Below, piece by piece: positions 25,365 to 38,449 of a DNA stretch of 64,000 nt. Position 1 is the stretch's first letter. Each line of letters starts with the position of its first letter. A program made the position numbers and the translations under genes. The stretch comes from Bifidobacterium sp. 7101 (GTDB lineage: Bacteria; Actinomycetota; Actinomycetes; Actinomycetales; Bifidobacteriaceae), in the NCBI RefSeq assembly GCF_000499285.1, contig NZ_AWUN01000002.1:372001-436000 (forward strand). Direction: 5' to 3'. The notes under the pieces were generated by a model that ran no database searches, had not been told where the DNA came from, and worked only from the letters and a program-made list of their open reading frames with translations.

Positions 25365-26813
25365 TCAGTCCTCGTCCTCAGCCACGCGGGAGTGGCTGTA
25401 GATCATCTTCATGGAGCAGATGAAGAGCACCAGGCCCAGCAGGATGATGACGCCACCGATCATGAAGACATTGGCGTAGGTCGAAGCCAGGCCCTGCGCG
25501 GTGCCGGCCAGGCTGCCCGAACCCATGGATCCGTTGGCCATGAGCTGCCCGAAGAGGGCGACGCCGACAGAGCCGGTGATGGCCTGCAGGAGGTCGTTGA
25601 AGCCGAGCACACGGCCGGACTCCTCAGGAGCCACGGTCAGGGTCGCGGTGTCAACGATGGGCTGGTAGAAGAAGGAGGTGCCGAAGTAGTAGATGCAGGG
25701 CGCCACAGCCAGGGCCCAGATCTTGCCGGCGGGGATCAGGAAGGCAATGGCGATCAGGCCGCCGCCCATGCAGGCCAGAGCCAGGATGACCGAAGCCTTG
25801 CGCCCGATCTTCTGGATGATCGGCCCGGCCGCGAATCCCATGATGCCGGCCAGGATGATGGACCAGACCAGCAGGTTGGAGACCTTGGAGGAGTCGATGC
25901 CGTAGACGTTCAGACCAATGGCGTTGACGCCCGCGTTCAGGGTGTAGCTGAAGAAGTAGCCGACGAAGATGACGGTCATGGTCATGGCGAAGGCCGGGTT
26001 GGTCAGCATCTTCGGAGTGATGAAGGGGTTGCTGGCCTTGTTGACATAGACCAGGAAGGCCACCAGGGTCACGATGCAGGCAATGCCCCAGCCCCAGTTG
26101 ATGTCGGTGAAGAACATGGTCACCGAAGCGGCGAACAGTCCGATCAGGGTGAAGCCGATTCCGTCGATCTTGACGCCAGCGGCATGCTGGTCGGGCAGGT
26201 TCTTGGCCAGGACGGGAATGAAGAAGACGGCCAGGATGCCCACGCCGAAGAGCCAACGCCAGTCAAGCAGGGTCATGTAGCCGGCCAGGAAGACACCCAG
26301 AGCAGCGGCGAAGCGGAAGACCGCGACGAAGACACCGTACCAAAGCACGCGCTTCTTCTTCTCCACATACTTGGAGACCAGAACCAGGAAGATGGATCCG
26401 GAAACCTGCCAGCCGGCCGACTGCACCACACGGGCGGCGATGACGATCCAGATGCTGAAGGTGCCGAAGCACCCCAGAATCGACCCCAGAACGAAGACGA
26501 TCGTGCCCAGGATCATCATCTTCTTCAGGGAGACGAAATCGCCCAGGGAGCCGTAGATGACGCAGACGATTCCCAGGATGATGCCGGGCAGTGAGGTGAT
26601 CAGCGGAGCCAGATTGGCCTGGTTGAGCTGCTTGCCGATGTTCACGTAGATCATGCCGAAGGCCTGCTGCTGGAGCACGCCCAGGGTGAAGATGATCAGG
26701 ACCACCGGGATGGCCACGCGGGCCATCTTGTTCATTTTCGCGAACTCGGGAGTCCCCTCCTCGGGAACGGGTATGCCGTTCTTCTGCTCCTCGGAGACAG
26801 TTGACTCACTCAT
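25365..26813 (-). CDS. MFS transporter, probably nucleoside or related solute
   Basis: This 482-residue permease has about 14 membrane segments, in the build of the DHA2-like MFS branch. Motif A appears as GSLGDFVSLKKMMILG, and a second copy as GPIIQKIGRKASVILAL. The start at 26813 has AAGGAAAA directly upstream; earlier in-frame codons belong to the antisense of the hydrolase end. The gene follows the nucleoside hydrolase by 40 bases and is the last gene before a terminator, so it is probably co-transcribed. Context suggests uptake or export of nucleosides or bases, but the family alone does not show the substrate. Confidence 0.8.
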   Translation of the reverse strand: MSESTVSEEQKNGIPVPEEGTPEFAKMNKMARVAIPVVLIIFTLGVLQQQAFGMIYVNIGKQLNQANLAPLITSLPGIILGIVCVIYGSLGDFVSLKKMMILGTIVFVLGSILGCFGTFSIWIVIAARVVQSAGWQVSGSIFLVLVSKYVEKKKRVLWYGVFVAVFRFAAALGVFLAGYMTLLDWRWLFGVGILAVFFIPVLAKNLPDQHAAGVKIDGIGFTLIGLFAASVTMFFTDINWGWGIACIVTLVAFLVYVNKASNPFITPKMLTNPAFAMTMTVIFVGYFFSYTLNAGVNAIGLNVYGIDSSKVSNLLVWSIILAGIMGFAAGPIIQKIGRKASVILALACMGGGLIAIAFLIPAGKIWALAVAPCIYYFGTSFFYQPIVDTATLTVAPEESGRVLGFNDLLQAITGSVGVALFGQLMANGSMGSGSLAGTAQGLASTYANVFMIGGVIILLGLVLFICSMKMIYSHSRVAEDED

Positions 26814-26853: not shown

Positions 26854-27777
26854 CTACTGGCGCTGGACCCGGCCGACCCTGTCGACAAAGGCGGAGCGGA
26901 ATCCATCCACATCCACGTCCACGCAGACGCTGGTGTTGGTCTTGTCACTCAGGATGCCGTCGTAATCGACCACTGTGGCACCCAGGGTGAGTGGGCTGGA
27001 GATCTCGACATCCACAAAGGCCTGGCGCATGGTGAACAGGTCGGGCTGGAGCAGGACCATGGCGGCCGAAGGGTCATACATCTTGATCCCCTCCTCAATG
27101 TGCCCGCCATCGTAGGACCGGAAGAGGGATGCGACCATGCCGCCCACTTCGCCGGTTGCGTCCAGATCGTCCAGGTCGCCGGCGACCAGATGGGCCTTGC
27201 GACCGATGTCCAGGCCGACCATGGTCACAGGCAGTCCGCTGCGGAAGACCATCTTGGCAGCCTCAGGATCGACGGAGATGTTGAACTCGCCGTAGACACC
27301 GATGTTGCCGCGCCCGGTGGAGCCTCCCATCATGACGATCCGGTCGATGTGGTCCTTGACCTCCGGGAAGGTGGCCAGCAGCAGGGCGATGTTGGTCAGA
27401 GGGCCCAGGGTCAGGATGGTGACTGGCTCATCGCTCTCCAGCAACACCCGCCGCTCCTCCAGGACCGCATTGTTCTCGGTCAGCAGGCTGGCGTCCGGCT
27501 CAGGAAAGACGAATGACCCCATCCCTGACTTGCCGTGGGCTTCGGTGGCGAACCTGTTGTCACGCATGAGCGGAGCCGCCGCGCCACGGGCCACGGGGAT
27601 GCGCCTGCCCAGGAAGGTCAGCAGCTTCAGGGCATTGTTGGTGGTGTGGCCGATGCCCACATTGCCGGACACCGAGGCTATCAACCTGATGTCGAAGCTG
27701 GGCTCGTCGACCAGCATCGTAATGGCCGCAGCATCATCGATGCCAGGGTCCGTGTCGATGATCAGTGGTCTGGTCAT
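26854..27777 (-). CDS. Ribonucleoside hydrolase (IunH family)
   Basis: This 307-residue enzyme hydrolyses the N-glycosidic bond of ribonucleosides to free base and ribose in the cytoplasm. The Ca2+-binding N-terminus is intact: IIDTDPGIDDAAAI, with D8, D10, D14 and D15. Later motifs include ILTLGPLTNIA, IVMMGGSTGRGNIGVYGEFN, DPEAAKMVF and PVTMVGLD. The start has AAAGGAGTG upstream. It lies 34 bases after the ECF ATPase gene. Released ribose could be phosphorylated by the ribokinase domain of the divergent fusion gene. Base preference (pyrimidine versus purine) cannot be settled by eye. Confidence 0.92.
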   Translation of the reverse strand: MTRPLIIDTDPGIDDAAAITMLVDEPSFDIRLIASVSGNVGIGHTTNNALKLLTFLGRRIPVARGAAAPLMRDNRFATEAHGKSGMGSFVFPEPDASLLTENNAVLEERRVLLESDEPVTILTLGPLTNIALLLATFPEVKDHIDRIVMMGGSTGRGNIGVYGEFNISVDPEAAKMVFRSGLPVTMVGLDIGRKAHLVAGDLDDLDATGEVGGMVASLFRSYDGGHIEEGIKMYDPSAAMVLLQPDLFTMRQAFVDVEISSPLTLGATVVDYDGILSDKTNTSVCVDVDVDGFRSAFVDRVGRVQRQ

Positions 27778-27811
27778 TGCTTCACTCCTTTTGCTCTTGT
27801 CGTATCCAAAC

Positions 27812-28630
27812 TCAAATTCCTGCCCCCGCTTTGGCCCGCCGGACTGCATCAACAAAGCCGGAAACGGTGAAAACCGGGCCCTCCAAACCGACCTGCCGGG
27901 CCACCCGGGTGATGGGCGGAGGCGTCACATAGGCCTGCTTGAGCACATCCTCCCGGGCGAAGACCTCCTCGCGGCTGCCATCCAGTAGGACCCGGCCATG
28001 CTGCATGAGCACGACTCTGGGGAAGTTGCGGGTGACGAACTTCATGTCGTGGGAAATCGTGATGCAGAGCTTGCCTTGATCCCGCAGACGGGCGATGATG
28101 GCAGCCAGCCGATCATTGCCGGCCTTGTCCTGCCCGCATGTGGGCTCGTCGAAAACCACGGCACCCGTATCCATCATCAGGACGGAGCCGATGGCGCAGA
28201 ACTTCTTCTCGGTGGGGCTCAGGTCGAAAGGATGATCGTCCAGCCGGTCCGCCAGGCCCACCAACCCGGCCACCTGCTCCATACGTCGCCCTATCAGATC
28301 CTGATCGAACCCAAGCTGCCGGGGACCGAATTCGAATTCCTTGCGCACACTGTCCAGAAAGAGCTGATCGTCGGGATTCTGAAAAACGTACCCCACCTTC
28401 CCAGCCCACTGGGCCGTGTCCGCCGTCGCCAGATCGACACCGTCAATCAGGATCCGACCACTGGTCGGTCTCAGGATGCCGTTCAGATGCTTGGCCAGGG
28501 TAGTCTTGCCAGCGCCATTCTGACCGATCAGCGCCACGGGCCGGTCACCCTCGAGAGTCAGATCCACTCCGTCCAGGGCACGATGACCATGCGGATAGAT
28601 GTACTCCAGATGCTCCAGGTCAATCCTCAT
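27812..28630 (-). CDS. ECF transporter ATPase with atypical signature motif
   Basis: This 272-residue ATPase is one of a pair that energises an energy-coupling-factor transporter. Walker A is GQNGAGKTT (36-44) and the Q-loop VFQNPDDQLF. The ABC signature is replaced by LSPTEKK (137-143) instead of LSGGQ, and Walker B by VVFDEPTCGQD. An altered signature in one ATPase of a heterodimer normally leaves one of the two ATP sites impaired. The ATG at 28630 has GGGAG eight bases upstream; a GTG three bases earlier is possible. Its start overlaps the previous stop. The C-terminal helical domain typical of EcfA proteins appears present. Confidence 0.88.
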   Translation of the reverse strand: MRIDLEHLEYIYPHGHRALDGVDLTLEGDRPVALIGQNGAGKTTLAKHLNGILRPTSGRILIDGVDLATADTAQWAGKVGYVFQNPDDQLFLDSVRKEFEFGPRQLGFDQDLIGRRMEQVAGLVGLADRLDDHPFDLSPTEKKFCAIGSVLMMDTGAVVFDEPTCGQDKAGNDRLAAIIARLRDQGKLCITISHDMKFVTRNFPRVVLMQHGRVLLDGSREEVFAREDVLKQAYVTPPPITRVARQVGLEGPVFTVSGFVDAVRRAKAGAGI

Positions 28631-29475
28631 CACAGCGTCTCCCGAATCATGCGCACCGCCTGGTCCTCGCGCACGGGCAGATCCGACAGATCAAAGCCTG
28701 CGTCCTTCAGACCCCTGCCGAGCTTGACATAATCCGGTATGTCAATCCCCCATTTCTCGACCTCAGGATCGGTGAAGACCTCCTCGGGTGCACCCAGGGC
28801 ACGAACCCGACCAGCGCCCAGGACCATGACCTGATCGGCGCATCGGGCGACCCGCTCCATATCGTGATCGACCATGACTACGGTGATCCCCTTCTGGTTG
28901 AGCCGCTTGACGATGTCGAAGATCTCCTCGCTGCCAAGCGGATCCAGCTGGGCCGTGCATTCGTCCAGAACCAGGATGTCCGGCTCCATGATCAAGGTCG
29001 AGCCAAGGGCAACCCGCTGCACCTGTCCACCGGAAAGCTCCAGGGGATTCTTGTCGAGCAGATCCTCGATATGCATAAGAGCCGCCACCCGGGCCACCTT
29101 GGCATGCATGGTTTCACGTGAAACCCCATGATTGCCCAGCCCGAAGGCCAGTTCCTCGGCCACGGTCCCGGCCGTATAGGAAAGCTGATTGAAGGGATTC
29201 TGAAAGACCAGGCCCACGTGTCTGGACAGATCGGCAATAGTCGAACTGGCTACGTCCCTGCCTTCGATGCTGACACTTCCCTTGGATTTGCCTACGAAAT
29301 AGTGCGGAATCAGACCGACCAGGGCGTTACAAAGGGTCGACTTGCCCGACCCATTGGCCCCGACAATGCAGAAGAAGCTGCCCTGCTCCACGCTGAAGCT
29401 CACCCGCTTCAAGGTGGTCCGATCGGCATCACGGTATCTGAAAGAGAAGTCCTCTACCCGTATGACCTCGGTCAT
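28630..29475 (-). CDS. ECF transporter ATPase (EcfA)
   Basis: This 281-residue ATPase pairs with the following gene product in the ECF module. Walker A is GANGSGKST (39-47), Q-loop VFQNPFNQLSYTAGTV, canonical signature ELSGGQVQRVALG and Walker B ILVLDECTAQLDP, with cysteine in place of the usual proline. The H-loop is VMVDHDMERV. Translation starts at 29475, overlapping the EcfT stop by ATGA with GGGGAGG upstream. An upstream in-frame ATG lies inside the EcfT gene. The complex imports a small molecule bound by the S component, here probably a nucleoside or its base. Confidence 0.9.
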   Translation of the reverse strand: MTEVIRVEDFSFRYRDADRTTLKRVSFSVEQGSFFCIVGANGSGKSTLCNALVGLIPHYFVGKSKGSVSIEGRDVASSTIADLSRHVGLVFQNPFNQLSYTAGTVAEELAFGLGNHGVSRETMHAKVARVAALMHIEDLLDKNPLELSGGQVQRVALGSTLIMEPDILVLDECTAQLDPLGSEEIFDIVKRLNQKGITVVMVDHDMERVARCADQVMVLGAGRVRALGAPEEVFTDPEVEKWGIDIPDYVKLGRGLKDAGFDLSDLPVREDQAVRMIRETL

Positions 29476-30290
29476 GCCCGGCCTCCCCACTGGATGGCCA
29501 AGGTGATCAGACCTGCGCGCGAGAGGCAGCAGAGCACCAGGGCCAGCACCAGAAAAACTGTGAACAGGATGGTCATCACGGTGTCACTGCGCCGCCAGAC
29601 CACCTCAAGGTAGCTGGTCTGCCGCACCCCTCGGATGCCGAATCCGCGGGTCTCCAGGGTCATTCCGCGCTCCTGTGAATCCGTCAGGGAGGAAAGCACC
29701 ACCGGTCCAAGCAGGGGCAGGAAAGCCCGCGCCCGGGAAATCAAGCCGCCGCCAGTCTCCAAGCCACGTGCATGCTGGGACTGTTCGATGACCGCAATCC
29801 TGCGCTGCATCTGCGGGACCACATTCAGACTGGCCAGGATCAGGTAGCCAATCTTCGACGGAACGCCAATCTGTGTCAGAGCCGCAACCAGGCGACCCAT
29901 GTAGGTGGTTTTATTGGTCAGGTAGAAGGACCCCAGGAAGACCAGAAGGGTTACTACGATTTTGGCCGCATAGAGGCTGCCTTCAAGGCCCAGTTGGGCG
30001 AATCCCAGGTCGAGAATAACCTTGGTATTCCTCGGGCTGTAGCACCCCTGAATGAACAGCAGCATGAGCGTAACGGGGATGCCGAACCCGAGCATCACGC
30101 CGGAGAAGGGCCGGAGCACCCGTCCCAGAACCGCTGCAATGAAGAGCACGACGATGATTCCCAGGCCAAGGGTAAAGTCCGGCCAGACCAAGGTCGCCAG
30201 GCCCAAGGAGCACACACCGGCGATCTTGGCCATGGGATGCATACGGGCCAGCAGGGAATCAGGAATGCCGTTCGACGCAGGACCAGGCAT
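29472..30290 (-). CDS. ECF transporter transmembrane component (EcfT)
   Basis: This 272-residue scaffold subunit links the S component to the two ATPases. It has about five hydrophobic segments. Two coupling motifs are visible: QSQHARGLETGGG, and SQERGMTLETRGFGI, the Ala/Gly-Arg-Gly elements that dock into ATPase grooves. The start at 30290 coincides with the last base of the S-component gene. The gene order S-T-A-A marks a dedicated group I type ECF system rather than a shared module. Confidence 0.9.
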   Translation of the reverse strand: MPGPASNGIPDSLLARMHPMAKIAGVCSLGLATLVWPDFTLGLGIIVVLFIAAVLGRVLRPFSGVMLGFGIPVTLMLLFIQGCYSPRNTKVILDLGFAQLGLEGSLYAAKIVVTLLVFLGSFYLTNKTTYMGRLVAALTQIGVPSKIGYLILASLNVVPQMQRRIAVIEQSQHARGLETGGGLISRARAFLPLLGPVVLSSLTDSQERGMTLETRGFGIRGVRQTSYLEVVWRRSDTVMTILFTVFLVLALVLCCLSRAGLITLAIQWGGRA

Positions 30291-31087
30291 CAGCGTTCAG
30301 ACCTTTGGGTACGACCACGGTCCAAGTCCGCCGGGTCGCCTGTCGATGTGCCACCATCAGATTCTGCTGCGCTGTCAATCTCCCCCCGCCGTACTGAACT
30401 CTCCCGACTGGGCACTCCAGCAACTTCGCGCTCTTCCTTGTCTTCATCCTCATCCAGGTCATCCAAATCGTCCAGATCATCCTGGTCCTTGCTGCCGTCC
30501 AGGGCGTACTGGCTCAGGAAGCGCTTGGGGATTCGACGCACTATCACATAAGCGATCAGAACGGTGATCCCCTTATCGATCAAATTCTCCAGCATGGATG
30601 AGGAGAGCACAGAGATGACGATGTTCTTCACAGCCACCACCAGTGCAGCTGTGAGGACCGAGGTGCCGTTGACTCCGGTGGCGCCCCCGTAGACGAACAC
30701 GGTGATCAGAGAGGCGGTGACCGTGTTGACCAGGGCACAGGCCAGCCAGACCAGGACGACTCCCCATATCCGTTTGAAGAGCCCGGCCTTGACCATGTAG
30801 CCGATCACCAGACCGCACAGAACGCTGGAGAGCGCATAGGGCAGATAGACCGGGTTGGCCACCAAGGCGAGGAAAACGTTGGTCAGCAGTCCGCATAAGG
30901 CAGCCACCCAGGGACCAGACAGGCAGGCGATGACCGTGGTGCCGATCATATCCAGGAAGAGCGGCAGTTTGAGGGCGGAGCTCAGGGTACCACCGATGAG
31001 GTTGATGCCCACCGCGATGGGTATCAGCACCAAGGATTTTGTCGAGAACTGCGCTGTGATCCCTCTCCACAACGATCGCGCGCTCAT
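30290..31087 (-). CDS. ECF transporter S component, substrate-specific subunit
   Basis: This 265-residue protein has about six membrane segments in residues 15-190, as expected for an ECF S component. Motifs such as LPLFLDMIGTTVIACLSGPW and GLLTNVFLALVANPVYLPYA resemble S components of unassigned or nucleoside-like specificity. The last 70 residues form a cytoplasmic, strongly charged tail with DQDDLDDLDDLDEDEDKEE, unusual for this family and without an obvious role. It is the first gene of a six-gene operon with a nucleoside hydrolase, so a ribonucleoside is the best guess for substrate. The start has a moderate ribosome site. Confidence 0.82.
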   Translation of the reverse strand: MSARSLWRGITAQFSTKSLVLIPIAVGINLIGGTLSSALKLPLFLDMIGTTVIACLSGPWVAALCGLLTNVFLALVANPVYLPYALSSVLCGLVIGYMVKAGLFKRIWGVVLVWLACALVNTVTASLITVFVYGGATGVNGTSVLTAALVVAVKNIVISVLSSSMLENLIDKGITVLIAYVIVRRIPKRFLSQYALDGSKDQDDLDDLDDLDEDEDKEEREVAGVPSRESSVRRGEIDSAAESDGGTSTGDPADLDRGRTQRSER

Positions 31088-31338
31088 AATCCGTACCGCC
31101 TTTGGTCCTTGAATGTCGATTTCTGCAGATGGCCGTCGCTCACAGCCAGATCCGCATCACCGCTTTGAGAAACCACTTTAGTAAACAACTTTCATTGACA
31201 GAGACTATCAACAGCCGCATGGGGTGTCAAATGCGAAACCTCCGACGACCATCTCTCAGGTAAGCTTGATTCGCTAGATCCAACAGGTCGACAGAGCCGT
31301 TCGCCGGAGCGTCAGAGATGAGGAGGACAGGAAACCCC
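31088..31338. promoter_or_regulatory. Divergent control region of the ECF operon and the LacI-ribokinase gene
   Basis: This 251-base region should contain both promoters. An AT-rich segment, ACCACTTTAGTAAACAACTT (31172-31191), is the best candidate operator; its core TTTAGTAAA is symmetric around one base. No palindrome with the central CG usual for LacI operators was found. Confidence 0.4.
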
Positions 31339-33210
31339 ATGAACATCAAGGACATTGCTCAGCTTGCTGGCGTATCCACATCGACGGTCTCCAAAATTGT
31401 GAATCACAAGGATGCCAGCATCACAGCCGCCACGCGCGACAAGGTCCTTGAACTGGTCAGGAAGTACCACTACACGCCCTATGGATCCTCAAAGCCCAAC
31501 ACCACCACATGGAGAATCGGGGTCCTGCTGAGCTCATCCATCTCCATGGACTCCACCTTGGACGGGATCATCCAGCAGGCTCAAAAGTCGGGGTACGGCA
31601 CCCTGGTCTTCAACAGCTACGGCAATCACGACCAGGAGGAGCGCAACATTCTGGCCGCCTTGGAGCATCGGGTGGATGGCTTGGTCTGGGAGCCAATCGA
31701 CCACGCAAGCCTGGCCTTGAAAAGCAGGATCAAGGCAGGAGGGATTCCCGAACTGACCATTGGACCCCTGGGAGACGACCGGACCGCGCTCATGCCCTAC
31801 GAGGAGGCTGCCTACAGTCTTACTGAAGAGCTGATTAAGCGCAACCACACCAGCATCGCCTGTCTGCTCTCGCCGGGCAGACGGACCCGGAGCTTCCTGC
31901 ATGGTTATCGTCGTTGCTTGTTCGACCACAACCTGCAATACCACACCGACATGGTCCTGGAAACCATCGGCGAAGACCTGACCCAAGTCCTGGAAAACCG
32001 GCAGGTCACGGGAGTCGTGGCATCCCACTACCACCATGCCTTGGAATTCCTCCAATTCGCCGAATCCATGCATTACCGCCTGCCCCAAGACCTTTCCCTG
32101 GTCTCCCTGATGAACGACACCAACGTGCACCTGCGCTACCCTGGCAGCCCGGAGATATCGTCCTACGTCATGCGTAACGCCGACTTCGGCGCCTACCTGT
32201 GCCGACGGATCATCCACGCCATTGAGCATGAATCCCATCCGAGCGAGACCTTCGATCATGTCTTCGCCCTGGACGGCGAGAAGACCGTCGGCCAGCCCCC
32301 GGATCAGCAATGTAAGAAGATCGTAGTGGTCGGCAGCATCAACGTGGACACCTACCTGACCGCCCCCAGCCTGCCCAAGGCGGGCATGACCACCACGACC
32401 AGAAACTTCGCCTCCACACCGGGGGGCAAGGCCACCAACCAGGCCGTAGGCGTGGCCAGGCTACAGCATCAGGTTTCCCTGATTGGCAATGTCGGCAGCG
32501 ATCCGGCCGCTGACTACATCTACAAAACCATGAGGCAAGCCCATGTGGATGCCACTGGTGTGCACAGAGTCAGCGGGGCGGATACGGGCAAAGCCTACAT
32601 CTTCGTCGACAGCAAGGGCGAGTCGATGATCTCCCTTGTGGCGGGCGCCAACGAATTTCTGACCCCGGACGACATCAGCGAGCGCGATCAGATCTTCCGG
32701 AACACCGGCTACTGCCTGATCCAGACAGAGATCCCCATGGACACCGTCATTGAGGCCTGCAGAACAGCCAAGCGCCACCAGGCCACCACCATCGTCAAAC
32801 CGTCATCCTGTGACCACCTGCCTGAAGACCTACTGGCTTCAATCGACATCCTGATCCCGAATCTGAACGAGCTGAACACCCTGATACCAGGACCAGGATC
32901 CGTGGTTGATAAGGCGAAACGGTTCATCGACGGCGGGGTGGGCAAGGTCATCATCACCCTGGGCGAGCGCGGCTGCACCCTGGTCACTGCCCGCGGGCAC
33001 AAGGACTTCCCAGCCCACGAAACCCGAACGATCGACGACACCGGCGCCAGCGATGCTTTCATCAGCGCCCTGGCCTCCTATCTGTGCAGCGGATCCCCCT
33101 TGGACAAAGCCGCTCATATTGCCAATCTGGCCGCCGGCTTCAGCGTCGCCCACGAAGGCGTCATCCCCTCCCTGATCAACCGCCGCCAGCTGGAGGGCCT
33201 GATCGACTGA
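31339..33210 (+). CDS. LacI-type regulator fused to a ribokinase-like PfkB kinase
   Basis: This 623-residue fusion joins a complete LacI-family repressor to a sugar kinase. The helix-turn-helix is NIKDIAQLAGVSTSTVSKIV at the N-terminus, and the sensor domain runs to about 315. From about 327 the PfkB domain begins with KKIVVVGSINVDTYL, then TPGGKATNQAVGVARL, and ends with DDTGASDAF (566-574) holding catalytic D572. Both halves look intact, so the protein may phosphorylate ribose and regulate transcription. The start at 31339 is favoured over an ATG 21 bases earlier because AGGAGGACAGGA lies between them. It is divergent from the ECF-nucleoside hydrolase operon, its likely target. Confidence 0.92.
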   Translation: MNIKDIAQLAGVSTSTVSKIVNHKDASITAATRDKVLELVRKYHYTPYGSSKPNTTTWRIGVLLSSSISMDSTLDGIIQQAQKSGYGTLVFNSYGNHDQEERNILAALEHRVDGLVWEPIDHASLALKSRIKAGGIPELTIGPLGDDRTALMPYEEAAYSLTEELIKRNHTSIACLLSPGRRTRSFLHGYRRCLFDHNLQYHTDMVLETIGEDLTQVLENRQVTGVVASHYHHALEFLQFAESMHYRLPQDLSLVSLMNDTNVHLRYPGSPEISSYVMRNADFGAYLCRRIIHAIEHESHPSETFDHVFALDGEKTVGQPPDQQCKKIVVVGSINVDTYLTAPSLPKAGMTTTTRNFASTPGGKATNQAVGVARLQHQVSLIGNVGSDPAADYIYKTMRQAHVDATGVHRVSGADTGKAYIFVDSKGESMISLVAGANEFLTPDDISERDQIFRNTGYCLIQTEIPMDTVIEACRTAKRHQATTIVKPSSCDHLPEDLLASIDILIPNLNELNTLIPGPGSVVDKAKRFIDGGVGKVIITLGERGCTLVTARGHKDFPAHETRTIDDTGASDAFISALASYLCSGSPLDKAAHIANLAAGFSVAHEGVIPSLINRRQLEGLID

Positions 33211-33575: not shown

Positions 33576-35645
33576 ATGCAGCATTCAACATTTACTACCG
33601 ACGGCCAAGCCCTGAAGTGGACAGGCAACGGTGAATACCTTCGCATCGAGCCCTGGGGATCAGATTCCATACGCGTCCGATCCTCGCTCATGCACGAACC
33701 CGAAGATCCGGACTGGGCGCTTTTACACGATCACCACGAGCCTGCCGATGCAGTGCACATAAGCATCGATGACCAGCAGGGACAGGCCACCATAATCAAC
33801 GGGTCTCTCATTGTCAAGGCGCAGGCCTCGGGCGGCATTGACACAGGTAACGGCTATACCGACAAGTGCCTGCTCAGCTTTTGGCGCACCGACGGTACGC
33901 CGCTCTTCAGCGAGATGAACGATGGCGGCTCCCTGAATTTAAGAGCGCGTTCTTTCGCTCCCATCGTGGGAGGCGACCACCAGGTCAAGGTGACATTCGT
34001 GCCTCCGGAAAACGAACGTCTGTATGGCATGGGTGAATATCAACAGAACATCATGAATCTGAAAGGCTGCACGCTCGAACTGGCCCATAGGAACTCGCAA
34101 ATCTCCATACCCTTCGTCGTCTCCAGCTGCGGATACGGATTCCTATGGAACAATCCGGCTGTTGGATCCGTCAGTTTCGGGAAGAATAAGACCCAATGGT
34201 CGGCGGACAGCACTCGGCAGATTGATTATTGGATTACAGCCGGTGCCGATTATCGCTCAATTATGGCCCACTACGCAGATGCTACCGGTCATGCCCCTCA
34301 AATGCCTGAATGGGGTCTTGGATTTTGGCAGAGTAAGCTTCGCTATTGGAACCAGGATCAACTGCTGGAGGTTGCCAGAGAGTTCAAAAAGCGCAACATC
34401 CCTCTGGACCTCATTGTCATCGACTTCTTCCATTGGCCTCACATGGGTGATTTCAGATTCGAAGACGAATTCTGGCCAGATCCCGTCAGCATGAGCAACG
34501 AATTGCACAAGATGGGAATCCGACTCATGGTGTCAGTCTGGCCGCAGATAGCACTGACTTCTGAAAACTATCCAGAGATGAAAGCCAAGAATCTGCTGGT
34601 ACGAGCAGACCACGGCGAAGACATCGGCATGATGTTCGAGGAACCCAGCCAATTCTTTGATGCCACCAACCCTCGAGCCCGCCAATATGTATGGGAGAAA
34701 TGCCGTGAGCACTACGCCGATGTCGGCGTCGATGCCTTCTGGCTGGATGAGGCCGAACCAGAGTATGGCACTTACGATTTCGGCAATTACCGCTATTGGG
34801 CTGGTCCTGCTCAGCAAACAGCCAATCTGTATCCGCGGGAATACAACAAGGGATTCTACGAGGGACAGCTGGCATACGGACGCCAGGGGCAAATCGTCAA
34901 CCTCACCAGATGCGCATGGGCCGGATCCCAACAATACGGGGCTCTTGTATGGTCGGGCGATGTGGCATCCACCTTCGAGGCGTTCAGAGCACAAATCACC
35001 TGTGCTATCCATATGGGAATGGCCGGCATTCCTTGGTTCACCACCGACCTTGGCGGCTTCCACGGTGGCGATATCGACGATCCCACATTCCGTGAACTGC
35101 TGTTGCGGTGGGCGCAATTCTCCTGCTTCTCGCCCGTCATGCGCAACCATGGTGCGCGTAGCCAGCATCACCCCGACGGAAGCACCGAGACCGCTGTCAC
35201 TACAGCGCGAGGCGAACGGCGGTTACCGTCCGGGGCGAGCAATGAACCGTGGAGCTATGGAAAGTCCGTCGAAGACATCTATATCAAGTTCATCAAGATC
35301 CGAGAGCATCTTCGCCCTTATCTGCGTGAGCTATTCGCTCAAGCGCATGAGGATGGGCAGCCGCTCATCAGGGGGCTGTTCTACGAATTCCCCCATGACG
35401 ACGCTGCCTCCGACATCGCCGACGAGTATATGCTCGGACCTGATTTGCTGGTAGCTCCAGTGACAGAGGAAGGAGCCAGATCTCGACAGGTCTACCTGCC
35501 TGGGGACGCGACTACGCAGTGGCAGGATCTTCGCGACGGGGAGATGCACGACGGGGGTAAGACGATCACCGCAAAAGCCCCGCTGGATACCCTGCCGGTA
35601 TTCGCCAGGGACGGCAGAAACCACGAGCTGCTGGGCATACTCTGA
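33576..35645 (+). CDS. GH31 alpha-xylosidase/alpha-glucosidase
   Basis: This 689-residue cytoplasmic enzyme of glycoside hydrolase family 31 should cleave alpha-linked xylose or glucose from short glycosides. An N-terminal beta domain precedes the catalytic barrel, which includes LPxW-like MPEWGLGFWQSK at 243-254. The nucleophile is D391 in FWLDEAEPEYG, and the acid/base is D462 in LVWSGDVAST. The DE.EPE form after the nucleophile resembles bacterial alpha-xylosidases more than the larger GH31 at 47088-49703. There is no signal peptide. AAAGGG lies upstream of the start. No transporter or regulator is adjacent, and it ends at a strong terminator. Confidence 0.88.
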   Translation: MQHSTFTTDGQALKWTGNGEYLRIEPWGSDSIRVRSSLMHEPEDPDWALLHDHHEPADAVHISIDDQQGQATIINGSLIVKAQASGGIDTGNGYTDKCLLSFWRTDGTPLFSEMNDGGSLNLRARSFAPIVGGDHQVKVTFVPPENERLYGMGEYQQNIMNLKGCTLELAHRNSQISIPFVVSSCGYGFLWNNPAVGSVSFGKNKTQWSADSTRQIDYWITAGADYRSIMAHYADATGHAPQMPEWGLGFWQSKLRYWNQDQLLEVAREFKKRNIPLDLIVIDFFHWPHMGDFRFEDEFWPDPVSMSNELHKMGIRLMVSVWPQIALTSENYPEMKAKNLLVRADHGEDIGMMFEEPSQFFDATNPRARQYVWEKCREHYADVGVDAFWLDEAEPEYGTYDFGNYRYWAGPAQQTANLYPREYNKGFYEGQLAYGRQGQIVNLTRCAWAGSQQYGALVWSGDVASTFEAFRAQITCAIHMGMAGIPWFTTDLGGFHGGDIDDPTFRELLLRWAQFSCFSPVMRNHGARSQHHPDGSTETAVTTARGERRLPSGASNEPWSYGKSVEDIYIKFIKIREHLRPYLRELFAQAHEDGQPLIRGLFYEFPHDDAASDIADEYMLGPDLLVAPVTEEGARSRQVYLPGDATTQWQDLRDGEMHDGGKTITAKAPLDTLPVFARDGRNHELLGIL

Positions 35646-35886: not shown

Positions 35887-36282
35887 ATGAGACCAATGTC
35901 GGACTATGCCAAGGACCTGCAGCACTCGGGCATGGTCGCCCGCGATCTGGACGAGACCATCGACTTCTACACCGACAAACTCGGGTTCGAGCTGGTCGGC
36001 ATCTACCCCAACGGAGAGAATCGCTGCGCCTTTCTGCGTCTGGGACATCTGACCATCGAAACCTGGGAGGGCGAGCCTGCGCCCATGCGCACCGGGGCCA
36101 TCAACCACTGGGCATTGGACGCGCCGGACATCGATGCTGCTTACGAGCATGCCCTGGAGATGGGGTTGAACATCAGAGAGGACTCCATCCAGTCCATTCC
36201 CACCTTCTGGCAGCACGGAATCCGCTACTTCAACGTCATTGGTCCCAACCAGGAGACCATCGAGTTCTGCCAGATTCTCTGA
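35887..36282 (+). CDS. VOC-superfamily (glyoxalase-like) protein
   Basis: This 131-residue single-domain protein has the vicinal-oxygen-chelate fold pattern: HSGMVARDLDETIDFYTDKL at the start, a second half with NHWALDAPDIDAAYEHALEMG, and the end ETIEFCQIL. Likely metal ligands are H13, E57 and E127, as in glyoxalase I-like proteins. The family includes lactoylglutathione lyases, dioxygenases and resistance proteins, so the reaction is not assigned. AAAGGAG lies eight bases before the ATG. The gene stands alone between the GH31 terminator and the dehydrogenase pair. Confidence 0.8.
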   Translation: MRPMSDYAKDLQHSGMVARDLDETIDFYTDKLGFELVGIYPNGENRCAFLRLGHLTIETWEGEPAPMRTGAINHWALDAPDIDAAYEHALEMGLNIREDSIQSIPTFWQHGIRYFNVIGPNQETIEFCQIL

Positions 36283-36561: not shown

Positions 36562-37455
36562 ATGACGAACATTGAGAATGTCACGGTGGCCGGCGGCGGG
36601 GTGCTGGGCAGCCAGATCGCCTTCCAATCAGCATTCAAGGGCAAGAAAGTCACTGTCTACGACATCAACGATGAGGCCATTGCAGCGGCGGAGCAGCGGA
36701 TCAAGAACCGTCGCGACCTCTACAAGCGGGACATCAACGCCACCGACGAGCAGTTCGATGCTGGTCTGAATAACCTGAGCTACAGCGCAGACCTGGCTGA
36801 AGCCGTCAAGAACGCCGATCTGGTCATCGAAGCCGTCCCCGAGAAGCCCTCCATCAAACACAACTTCTACCAGAGCCTGGCCAAGGTAGCTCCCGAGAAG
36901 ACCATCTTCGCCAGCAACTCCTCCACATACGTGCCCAGCGCCTATGCTGCAGACACCGGTCGTCCGGCCAAGTTCCTCTGCCTCCACTTCGCCAATCACG
37001 TATGGCGCATGAATACCGCCGAGGTTATGGGTTCCGACCAGACCGACCCCGACATCTTCAACGAGATTGTGGACTATGCCAAGGAAATCGGCATGGTCCC
37101 CATCCCTCTCCATAAAGAGCAGCCCGGATACATCCTGAACAGCCTGCTGGTTCCCTTCCTGGAGGATGCCGGCTACCTCTGGGGCAACGATATAGCAGAC
37201 CCTGAAACCATCGACAAGACTTGGATGATCGGCACTGGCTCGCCAGTTGGCCCCTTCGGCGCCTATGACGCGGTCGGCCTGCGGACCATCTACAACATCA
37301 TCGAGGAGCAGAAAGGCGACGACCCCGGCTTCAAGCCCTTCCTGGAGAAGGTCCGGAAGATGCTCGACGAGGGGAAGACCGGCAGTGATGCAGGCCACGG
37401 ATTCTACGACTATCCGAACCCGCGTTACAAGGATAAGGACTTCCTCAAGGCCTGA
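36562..37455 (+). CDS. 3-hydroxyacyl-CoA dehydrogenase-like NAD-dependent oxidoreductase, copy 1
   Basis: This 297-residue cytoplasmic dehydrogenase oxidises a 3-hydroxyacyl-CoA or a related hydroxy acid with NAD. The Rossmann motif is VTVAGGGVLGSQIA (7-20), and the acidic residue for NAD is D34 in VYDIN. The motifs DLVIEAVPE and ASNSSTYVPS follow. The catalytic histidine is likely H142 in CLHFANHVW, paired with E154. The C-terminal helical domain ends with GHGFYDYPNP. Bifidobacteria lack a fatty-acid beta-oxidation pathway, so the substrate may not be an acyl-CoA; gulonate-type dehydrogenases share this fold. It is followed 100 bases later by a close paralogue. Confidence 0.85.
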   Translation: MTNIENVTVAGGGVLGSQIAFQSAFKGKKVTVYDINDEAIAAAEQRIKNRRDLYKRDINATDEQFDAGLNNLSYSADLAEAVKNADLVIEAVPEKPSIKHNFYQSLAKVAPEKTIFASNSSTYVPSAYAADTGRPAKFLCLHFANHVWRMNTAEVMGSDQTDPDIFNEIVDYAKEIGMVPIPLHKEQPGYILNSLLVPFLEDAGYLWGNDIADPETIDKTWMIGTGSPVGPFGAYDAVGLRTIYNIIEEQKGDDPGFKPFLEKVRKMLDEGKTGSDAGHGFYDYPNPRYKDKDFLKA

Positions 37456-37555
37456 TCGTCTGTCTACCACATCTGTGGGCCAGGCCCGTCCAAGACCTGG
37501 CTCTACTATGGAAGAGCGTATCCAAGGATGGATACCACGAATGAAAGAGGTTTCT

Positions 37556-38449
37556 ATGACGAACATTCATAATGTCACGGTTGCCGGCGGTGGGGTGCTT
37601 GGTAGCCAGATCGCCTATCAGTCAGCCTTCAAAGGCAAGAAAGTAACGATCTACGACATCAACGACCAAGCTGTTGCGGCTGCAGAGGAGCGCGTCAAGA
37701 ACCTGCGCGATTCCTACAAGCACGACATCAACGCAACTGATGAGCAGTTCGATGCCGGACTGAACAACATGTCCTTTACCGCCGACATGGCCGAGGCTGT
37801 CAAGAACGCTGACCTGGTCATCGAAGCCGTTCCCGAGAAGCCCTCCATCAAACATGACTTCTACCAGAGCCTGGCCAAGCTGGCGCCCGAGGACACCATC
37901 TTCACCAGCAACTCCTCCACCTACGTGCCCAGCACCTTCGCACCCGACACGGGCAGGCCGGACAAGTTCCTGAACATGCACTTCGCCAACCAGGTCTGGC
38001 TGAACAATACCGCAGAGATCATGGGCTCCGAGCAGACCGACCCCAAGGTCTTCAACGAGATCGTGGACTATGCCAAGGAAATCGGCATGGTTCCCATCGT
38101 CCTGAAGAAGGAGCAGCCAGGATACGTCCTGAACACCCTTCTCATCCCCCTGCTCAACGCCGCTGCCCACCTCTGGGGCCACGACATTGCAGACCCGGAG
38201 ACCGTGGATAAGACCTGGATGATCGGCACTGGCGCCCCCATGGGACCCTTCGCTATCTTTGACGTTGTGGGGCTGCGGACCGCCTTCAACATCACCAAGG
38301 AGCAGCAGGGCGACAACCCTGACTTCAAGCCCTTCATGGATAAGATCCAGAAGATGATGGACGAGGGCAAGACCGGCAAGGACTCCGGACAAGGCTTCTA
38401 CACCTATCCGAACCCCGCCTTTGCTGATCCTAACTTCCTGAAGGCCTGA
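37556..38449 (+). CDS. 3-hydroxyacyl-CoA dehydrogenase-like NAD-dependent oxidoreductase, copy 2
   Basis: This protein has the same 297-residue length as copy 1 and matches it along its whole length, from TNIHNVTVAGGGVLGSQIA to the end NFLKA, including the catalytic region MHFANQVWLNNTAE and the tail GQGFYTYPNP. The leader is also duplicated: AATGAAAGA(A/G)GTTTCT precedes both starts. The start at 37556 is fixed by that leader; a longer frame opens inside copy 1. Differences cluster around the active-site loop (HVWRMN versus QVWLNN) and in the C-terminal half, which may mean different substrates. A strong terminator follows. Confidence 0.87.
   Translation: MTNIHNVTVAGGGVLGSQIAYQSAFKGKKVTIYDINDQAVAAAEERVKNLRDSYKHDINATDEQFDAGLNNMSFTADMAEAVKNADLVIEAVPEKPSIKHDFYQSLAKLAPEDTIFTSNSSTYVPSTFAPDTGRPDKFLNMHFANQVWLNNTAEIMGSEQTDPKVFNEIVDYAKEIGMVPIVLKKEQPGYVLNTLLIPLLNAAAHLWGHDIADPETVDKTWMIGTGAPMGPFAIFDVVGLRTAFNITKEQQGDNPDFKPFMDKIQKMMDEGKTGKDSGQGFYTYPNPAFADPNFLKA

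Follow-up and report, generated by a model that had tools for sequence, protein, structure and literature searches.

The gene at positions 31339–33210 of the forward strand of the window, by which we mean the whole 64-kb stretch of Bifidobacterium DNA analysed here, translates as one stop-free frame of 623 amino acids. An alternative ATG lies at 31318; the alignments of relatives begin at 31339. The product comprises, in this order, a LacI-type helix-turn-helix (HTH), a PBP-type domain and a PfkB/ribokinase domain. The Pfam models LacI (PF00356, residues 2–47, E 3e-13, 49.6 bits against a cut-off of 27), Peripla_BP_3 (PF13377, residues 163–303, E 1e-12, 48.6 bits, cut-off 26.5) and PfkB (PF00294, residues 326–612, E 4e-51) each exceed their curated cut-offs within this uninterrupted frame, and PF00532 matches residues 71–179 of the PBP part. 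These matches, together with the alignment of relatives, confirm the proposal of a sequence-only reading that a LacI-type regulator is fused here to a ribokinase domain. The HTH is encoded at 31342–31479, the hinge region (about residues 48–58) at 31480–31512, the PBP-type domain (about residues 60–315) at 31516–32283 and the kinase domain at 32314–33174. In the latter, K487 (32797–32799) aligns with the position of N166 in Escherichia coli RbsK, and residues 569–572 (33043–33054) read GASD in place of the GXGD motif, with D572 at the position of the catalytic Asp. An AlphaFold model of the fusion (pLDDT 61, pTM 0.41) is too weak to judge domain contacts. As judged from its sequence, the protein is of LacI type by its HTH and PBP fold and of PfkB type by fold, and it lacks the canonical ligand residues, the usual hinge motif and an intact GXGD.

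An operon on the minus strand diverges from the fusion gene. It begins with the S component of an ECF transporter (30290–31087; CD3073-like, below the NCBIfam cut-off) and continues with a CbiQ-like T component recognized by Pfam (29472–30290), two probable ECF ATPases whose Walker A motifs were read by eye in the translations (28630–29490, GANGSGKST; 27812–28633, GQNGAGKTT), a RihC-like nucleoside hydrolase (26854–27780, possible start 27855; PF01156 E 8e-85; NF008036 378 bits, cut-off 382) and an MFS transporter assigned by Pfam (25365–26810, possible start 26948). Of 49 fusion loci, some of which are truncated by contig edges, 34 have a nucleoside hydrolase homologue in the vicinity and 31 a stand-alone PfkB kinase; an ECF S component accompanies 13 of them, and ABC transporters of BMP type and SBP1 type accompany 12 and 2, respectively. 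A separate ribokinase is absent from the window's own fetched stretch. By its gene content, the genomic context of the fusion is nucleoside salvage. The setting resembles that of RbsR2 and RbsR3, LacI-family regulators situated beside a rihC-type nucleoside hydrolase and transporters, and the accessible portion of the paper describing them assigns a ribokinase to these bifidobacterial nucleoside regulons (PMC4746261, Khoroshkin et al. 2016). As far as the main text of that paper was accessible, it contains no match for fused, fusion, kinase domain or asteroides.

Full-length relatives of the fusion occur in 16 of 27 Bifidobacterium genomes, the window's own included. Nine of the other genomes carry fusions with 92–96% identity to the window protein, the named relatives in this range being B. 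mellis, B. polysaccharolyticum, B. choladohabitans, B. mizhiense, B. asteroides (two records) and a Bifidobacterium sp.; by these identities the window genome is close to the B. asteroides clade. As the fusion recurs as an open frame across genomes of the genus, it is no sequencing artefact. The earlier remark that such fusions occur in bifidobacteria is borne out, and the distribution extends to another class of the phylum and to Lachnospiraceae. With the three to four best candidates per genome considered at strict E-values, so that the following tallies are lower bounds, the fusion is present in at least 2 of 396 genomes sampled from the phylum (own included). Within the class of the second phylum-wide match, which is probably Coriobacteriia, at least 8 of 296 genomes have it. 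The family of an 'uncultured Lachnospiraceae' genome yields at least 32 of 397 (that genome counted; in one match, L089 from G800, the kinase part alone matches), and the class of that same genome at least 4 of 391 (again counted; the match in L176 has three internal stops). A kinase tree of 76 rows, built by a quick method with SH-aLRT as the sole branch support, places 45 fused kinases and the split copy of L135 on one branch (SH-aLRT 100), a pattern that would fit one old fusion, later transferred between phyla. The conservation counts given below refer to 53 fusions, a set that excludes the split G800 locus L089 and the fusions of L138, L139 and L174–L176; removal of eight near-identical asteroides-clade fusions (L018–L025) yields a dereplicated set of 45, and the hinge set of 44 also lacks L017.

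Copies of the fusion divided into two separate frames lie at L135:7614–9583 and L125:3616–5554. The window's own genome contains, at L140:6093–8237, a LacI protein of 368 amino acids and a ribokinase of 341 amino acids, adjacent and on the same strand; a second fusion at this site, an open frame of 724 amino acids, was rejected because a stop lies between the halves.

A comparison of what lies upstream of 48 fusions showed an 18-bp palindrome, TAGGAAAATATTTTCCTA, that is common to many of them. The window contains a predicted operator copy, TGAGAAACCACTTTAGTA, at 31166–31183 (12.3 bits; none of 100 shuffles reached as high a score) and a second, TAGTAAACAACTTTCATT, offset by 13 bp at 31179–31196 (10.0 bits). 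The pattern TNNGAAANNNNTTTNNNA matches once in the 64-kb window, at the first copy, with 0.19 matches expected and one or more present in 15 of 100 shuffles. The best site of the fetched stretch falls upstream of the fusion in 38 of the 48 loci, the window among them, and sites of at least 12 bits lie upstream in 38 of 48 loci versus a total of 22 in the other 846,641 bases, figures obtained with a matrix that omits the own sites when scoring but is trained on the same upstream regions; the operator regions of the window, L106 and L107 are near-copies, and L135 is outside the 48. No site of 12 bits or more was found upstream in 10 of the 48 loci. Among the 34 loci whose main site reaches 12 bits or more, 24 have a second overlapping copy (at least 6 bits) at an offset of exactly 13 bp; one further locus has it at 37 bp, and nine have none. 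This shared motif is predicted to be the palindromic operator that LacI-family regulators have near their own gene. Since the transporters vary while the fusion and the operator persist, the operator appears to belong to the fusion. It emerged only from comparison across loci, an inverted-repeat search in the window alone being uninformative. No sigma-70 promoter or terminator was found in 31060–31360. In the window's own genome the operator pattern has two matches, one of them the window site, versus six for the reversed control, and no further target is claimed.

A LacI-family hinge helix bears the motif A-R-x-L, whose Leu lever acts at a central CpG of the operator. In the window protein the hinge is shortened and, in the alignments, devoid of the Ala-Arg-x-Leu of RbsR and PurR. 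Leu stands in the column of RbsR L54 in 3 of 44 fusions and is absent from the window protein, and a loose A-R-x-L motif is found within residues 47–60 in 4 of 53. The missing lever agrees with the centre of the operator, which is mostly not CG, unlike that of the RbsR2/RbsR3 motif. The search of open-licence PMC literature yielded no paper on a hinge Leu lever at a central CpG. The RbsR2/RbsR3 motif, as given in the accessible part of PMC4746261, is TGATAAAACGTTTTATCA with a central CG, whereas the fusion motif TAGGAAAATATTTTCCTA is often doubled at 13 bp. Reading of 31050–31400 by eye showed no exact RbsR2/RbsR3 consensus, the shared site there being TGAGAAACCACTTTAGTA. Two other bifidobacteria have RbsR2/RbsR3-like sites (TGATAAAACGTTTTAT-type) within their fusion stretches (L096 near 11802, L095 near 7174), which suggests cross-regulation in these two cases.

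The PBP domain departs from its relatives where a ligand would be held. Arg141, Asp215 and Gln235 of RbsB, which we take to be ligand positions, align with R195/D274/Q291 of RbsR, R202/D281/Q298 of CytR and R196/D275/Q292 of PurR. The window protein has F186, M258 and M278 in these columns, H230 being a further replacement of a canonical ligand residue. Among the 45 dereplicated fusions the three columns hold F or V in 40, R or K in 34 and I, M, V or L in 42, and the NPF(F/Y) loop of RbsB and RbsR is deleted or replaced. These replacements, which had escaped the sequence-only reading, make the kinase half the better candidate sensor. Its phrase that the regulator 'phosphorylates its inducer' usually implies an inducer bound by the LacI half, the very part whose canonical ligand residues are, by alignment, replaced.

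The fusions have conserved PBP residues of their own, W117 (36/45), E118 (33/45), Y/F154 (41/45) and H230 (33/45), situated in or beside the classical ligand columns, so that a new or other ligand is possible. The PBP domain might accordingly have been re-tooled so that a new pocket, aromatic in character, holds a nucleoside or a nucleobase, the kinase being a co-expressed passenger enzyme. The nucleoside hydrolase neighbours would suit such an arrangement, and CytR is a LacI relative that senses nucleosides. The residues common to CytR and PurR are nevertheless replaced, often with Arg or Lys in place of Asp, the distant members L085–L088, L090 and L091 lack most of the W/E/H residues, and a passenger enzyme would be expected to keep its GXGD. 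We regard a re-tooled pocket as unlikely.

In the kinase half, D572 aligns with D255 of E. coli RbsK, presumably the catalytic base. The RbsK residues N14, D16, G42, K43, N46 and E143, which we take to be those that contact ribose, all have their counterparts in the aligned window kinase, and the NXXE motif is present as N508 and E511. To this extent the earlier assertion that the kinase signatures are intact is upheld, but it fails at GXGD, which reads GASD with S571 as third residue, and at the N166 position, which is K487. The parts of the literature available to us name Asp255 together with the anion hole (PMC10339645), describe the Asp of GXGD as catalytic and its two glycines as recognizing the donor phosphates (PMC5931981) and report for the GAGD of ketohexokinase that the NH of Gly257 touches the beta-gamma bridge and helps to form the anion hole (PMC2651755).

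Across the 53 fusions D16, G42, K43, N46, E190 and G228 (RbsK numbering) and the first Gly of GXGD are invariant, while E143 and N187 are retained in 49 each and D255 in 51. As third residue of GXGD, 20 fusions have A, 16 have S, 12 have G and 5 have C. Gly at this position is thus found in 12 of 53 fusions versus 29 of 29 non-fused neighbourhood kinases (28 from fusion loci and one from the fusion-free locus L141; the split kinase of L135 belongs to the 30 stand-alone rows and is left out of the 29, and the L141 kinase is in both) and 22 of 22 panel kinases (30 fetched loci held 23 non-fused kinases, of which that of L166 was lost to a length filter; several of the panel are near-identical ribokinases of one clade). 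The tree requires a minimum of 11 changes between Gly and non-Gly here. Outside the 53, L174 reads GADD and L175 GAAD. At the N166 position all 53 fusions carry Lys and all 29 non-fused neighbours carry N or D; Lys also stands there in 2 of the 22 panel kinases, in a region of loose alignment. Further fusion-specific positions are N108S, P169A/S, G259S and A291V. D255N is found in 2 of 53 fusions (L086, L090) and E143V in 4 (L028–L031). Loss of the Gly shows no link to a nearby stand-alone kinase: in the 46 of 49 loci compared, the residue is not Gly in 20 of 29 with such a kinase and in 14 of 17 without. The window kinase misses the cut-off of the ribokinase equivalog TIGR02152 (251.1 bits vs 299.65), and so do two of three ribokinase-like stand-alone neighbours whose GXGD is normal (231 and 240 bits, with 366 for the remaining one), so that the low score is not diagnostic and provides no evidence of inactivity. 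PPi as the phosphate donor, an idea prompted by the part of PMC5931981 available, was rejected: the RXGRGD motif is absent from the window protein, and its Arg from the GXGD columns of the 53 fusions.

Within the asteroides clade (9 sequences), dN/dS is estimated at 0.065 over residues 1–60, at 0.095 over the PBP part and at 0.098 over the kinase part. The kinase domain is maintained by selection, though apparently not for an ordinary ribokinase active site. Decay of a kinase half that drifts without a role after a LacI gene was joined to a ribokinase is very improbable: GXGD, E143 and N187 are altered in some members and L135 has the halves as separate frames, but the single branch of fused kinases stays open across two phyla, the sugar residues are invariant and dN/dS is about 0.10. 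The fused kinase may or may not be active, the catalytic Asp, the sugar residues and purifying selection standing against a GXGD Gly lost in 41 of 53 members and an Asp lost in two. The sequence-only reading envisaged a bifunctional protein, both repressor and fully active ribokinase, which would phosphorylate its own inducer and so read flux. The retained Asp (51/53), the largely retained sugar and NXXE residues, the low dN/dS in the asteroides clade, the GAGD of 12 members and the lack of a separate ribokinase in the window's own stretch are all in keeping with it. The missing glycine, the invariant Lys, the persistence of D255N and E143V members and the stand-alone kinases near 31 of 49 loci weigh against it, and we consider such an enzyme improbable.

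An exchange of sensors would account for these features in another way, and we give it close to an even chance: the protein would be a local repressor that governs how nucleosides and ribose are taken up and degraded, and in which the kinase domain, slow or inactive, has turned into the ligand sensor. The proposal builds on the conserved fusion, the replaced PBP residues, the kept sugar residues of the kinase, the changed GXGD, the operator motif and the operon content. Repression would be exerted by an HTH dimer on the operator between the fusion gene and the divergent operon of ECF transporter, nucleoside hydrolase and MFS genes. The PBP domain, its usual sugar pocket lost, would mainly act as a frame for dimerization and transmission, and the fused kinase would sense by binding the presumed ligand, ribose released from nucleosides, together with ATP. 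Phosphoryl transfer may be slowed or abolished by the altered glycine of GXGD together with the Lys in the N166 column; any slow turnover left would reset the signal by phosphorylation. RbsK is a dimer, and pairing of the fused kinases may perhaps link an HTH dimer on one operator copy to a second on the other, at the offset of 13 bp.

The kept sugar residues, the Gly loss, the D255N and E143V members, purifying selection, the stand-alone kinases nearby, the nucleoside hydrolases and the operator speak for this swapped sensor. On the other side, D255 (51/53) and the first GXGD Gly (53/53) are not obviously needed by a pure binder, although the Asp may also hold the sugar. GAGD is found in 12 of 53 members, and a third residue other than Gly is mostly a small one (A, S, C), so that activity could survive; the window stretch has no separate ribokinase and Gly loss is not tied to a stand-alone kinase; the PBP part shows conserved residues of its own, so that it may bind another ligand, and 10 of 48 loci are without a strong operator site upstream.

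ROK repressors put a kinase fold to use in sensing or transcription, and NadR and BirA unite an enzyme and a DNA-binding repressor in one chain, with other folds and ligands. We know of no Gal3p-type sensor, ROK repressor or FLN protein in which a LacI protein is joined to a PfkB kinase. The fusion is like E. coli RbsR in its HTH/PBP plan and like RbsK in its PfkB domain with ribose residues, but RbsR and RbsK are two proteins with PBP ligand residues and GXGD intact, both of which are altered in the fusion. Gal3p and the plant FLN proteins, kinase folds serving sensing or transcription according to the portion of PMC3409070 available, provide a precedent for a kinase-like sensor. In agreement with the earlier statement that the coupling of the two activities is undescribed, no description of a LacI–ribokinase fusion or its coupling was found in open-licence PMC literature, which comprises few subscription papers and no bioRxiv preprints; nor does such a fusion appear in the accessible parts of PMC4746261, PMC6882875, PMC5931981, PMC10339645, PMC2651755, PMC5405513 and PMC3409070.

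More tentatively, and at somewhat less than an even chance, the fusions may constitute an ancient regulator family common to Actinomycetota and Lachnospiraceae. Its LacI scaffold would have given up the sugar pocket and acquired a ribokinase that serves as sensor and as dimer bridge on a double operator with 13-bp offset, a bacterial counterpart of Gal3p made of LacI and PfkB parts. If the proposed exchange of sensors is right, it would be a replacement of the sensor within the best-studied repressor family, an enzyme fold supplanting the usual pocket. The natural G/A/S/C variants at one catalytic glycine, together with the D255N and E143V members, would form a series for the question of how an enzyme becomes a sensor, and the same series bears on whether flux sensing by a kinase-repressor exists. 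The predicted operator would moreover apply to loci for nucleoside salvage in bifidobacteria, in Lachnospiraceae and in one more class.

Some features of the neighbourhoods deserve separate mention. Directly downstream of the fusion gene, the window carries a GH31 glycoside hydrolase gene (33576–35645); a GH31 cluster is found in 3 of 51 fetched loci and lies directly behind the fusion also in L107. A glyoxalase-family gene (35887–36282) adjoins two tandem, similar genes that resemble 3-hydroxyacyl-CoA dehydrogenases in their translations (36562–38449). In L092, L093, L098, L099, L100 and L102, an operon recurs about 3.7–6.6 kb from the fusion, encoding an ECF transporter, a PRA-isomerase-like protein, an IolC-like PfkB kinase, a nucleoside hydrolase and a HAD phosphatase, with an iron-type alcohol dehydrogenase in some copies; perhaps it represents an undescribed ribose or nucleoside route. 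The window's own genome contains four other PfkB genes.
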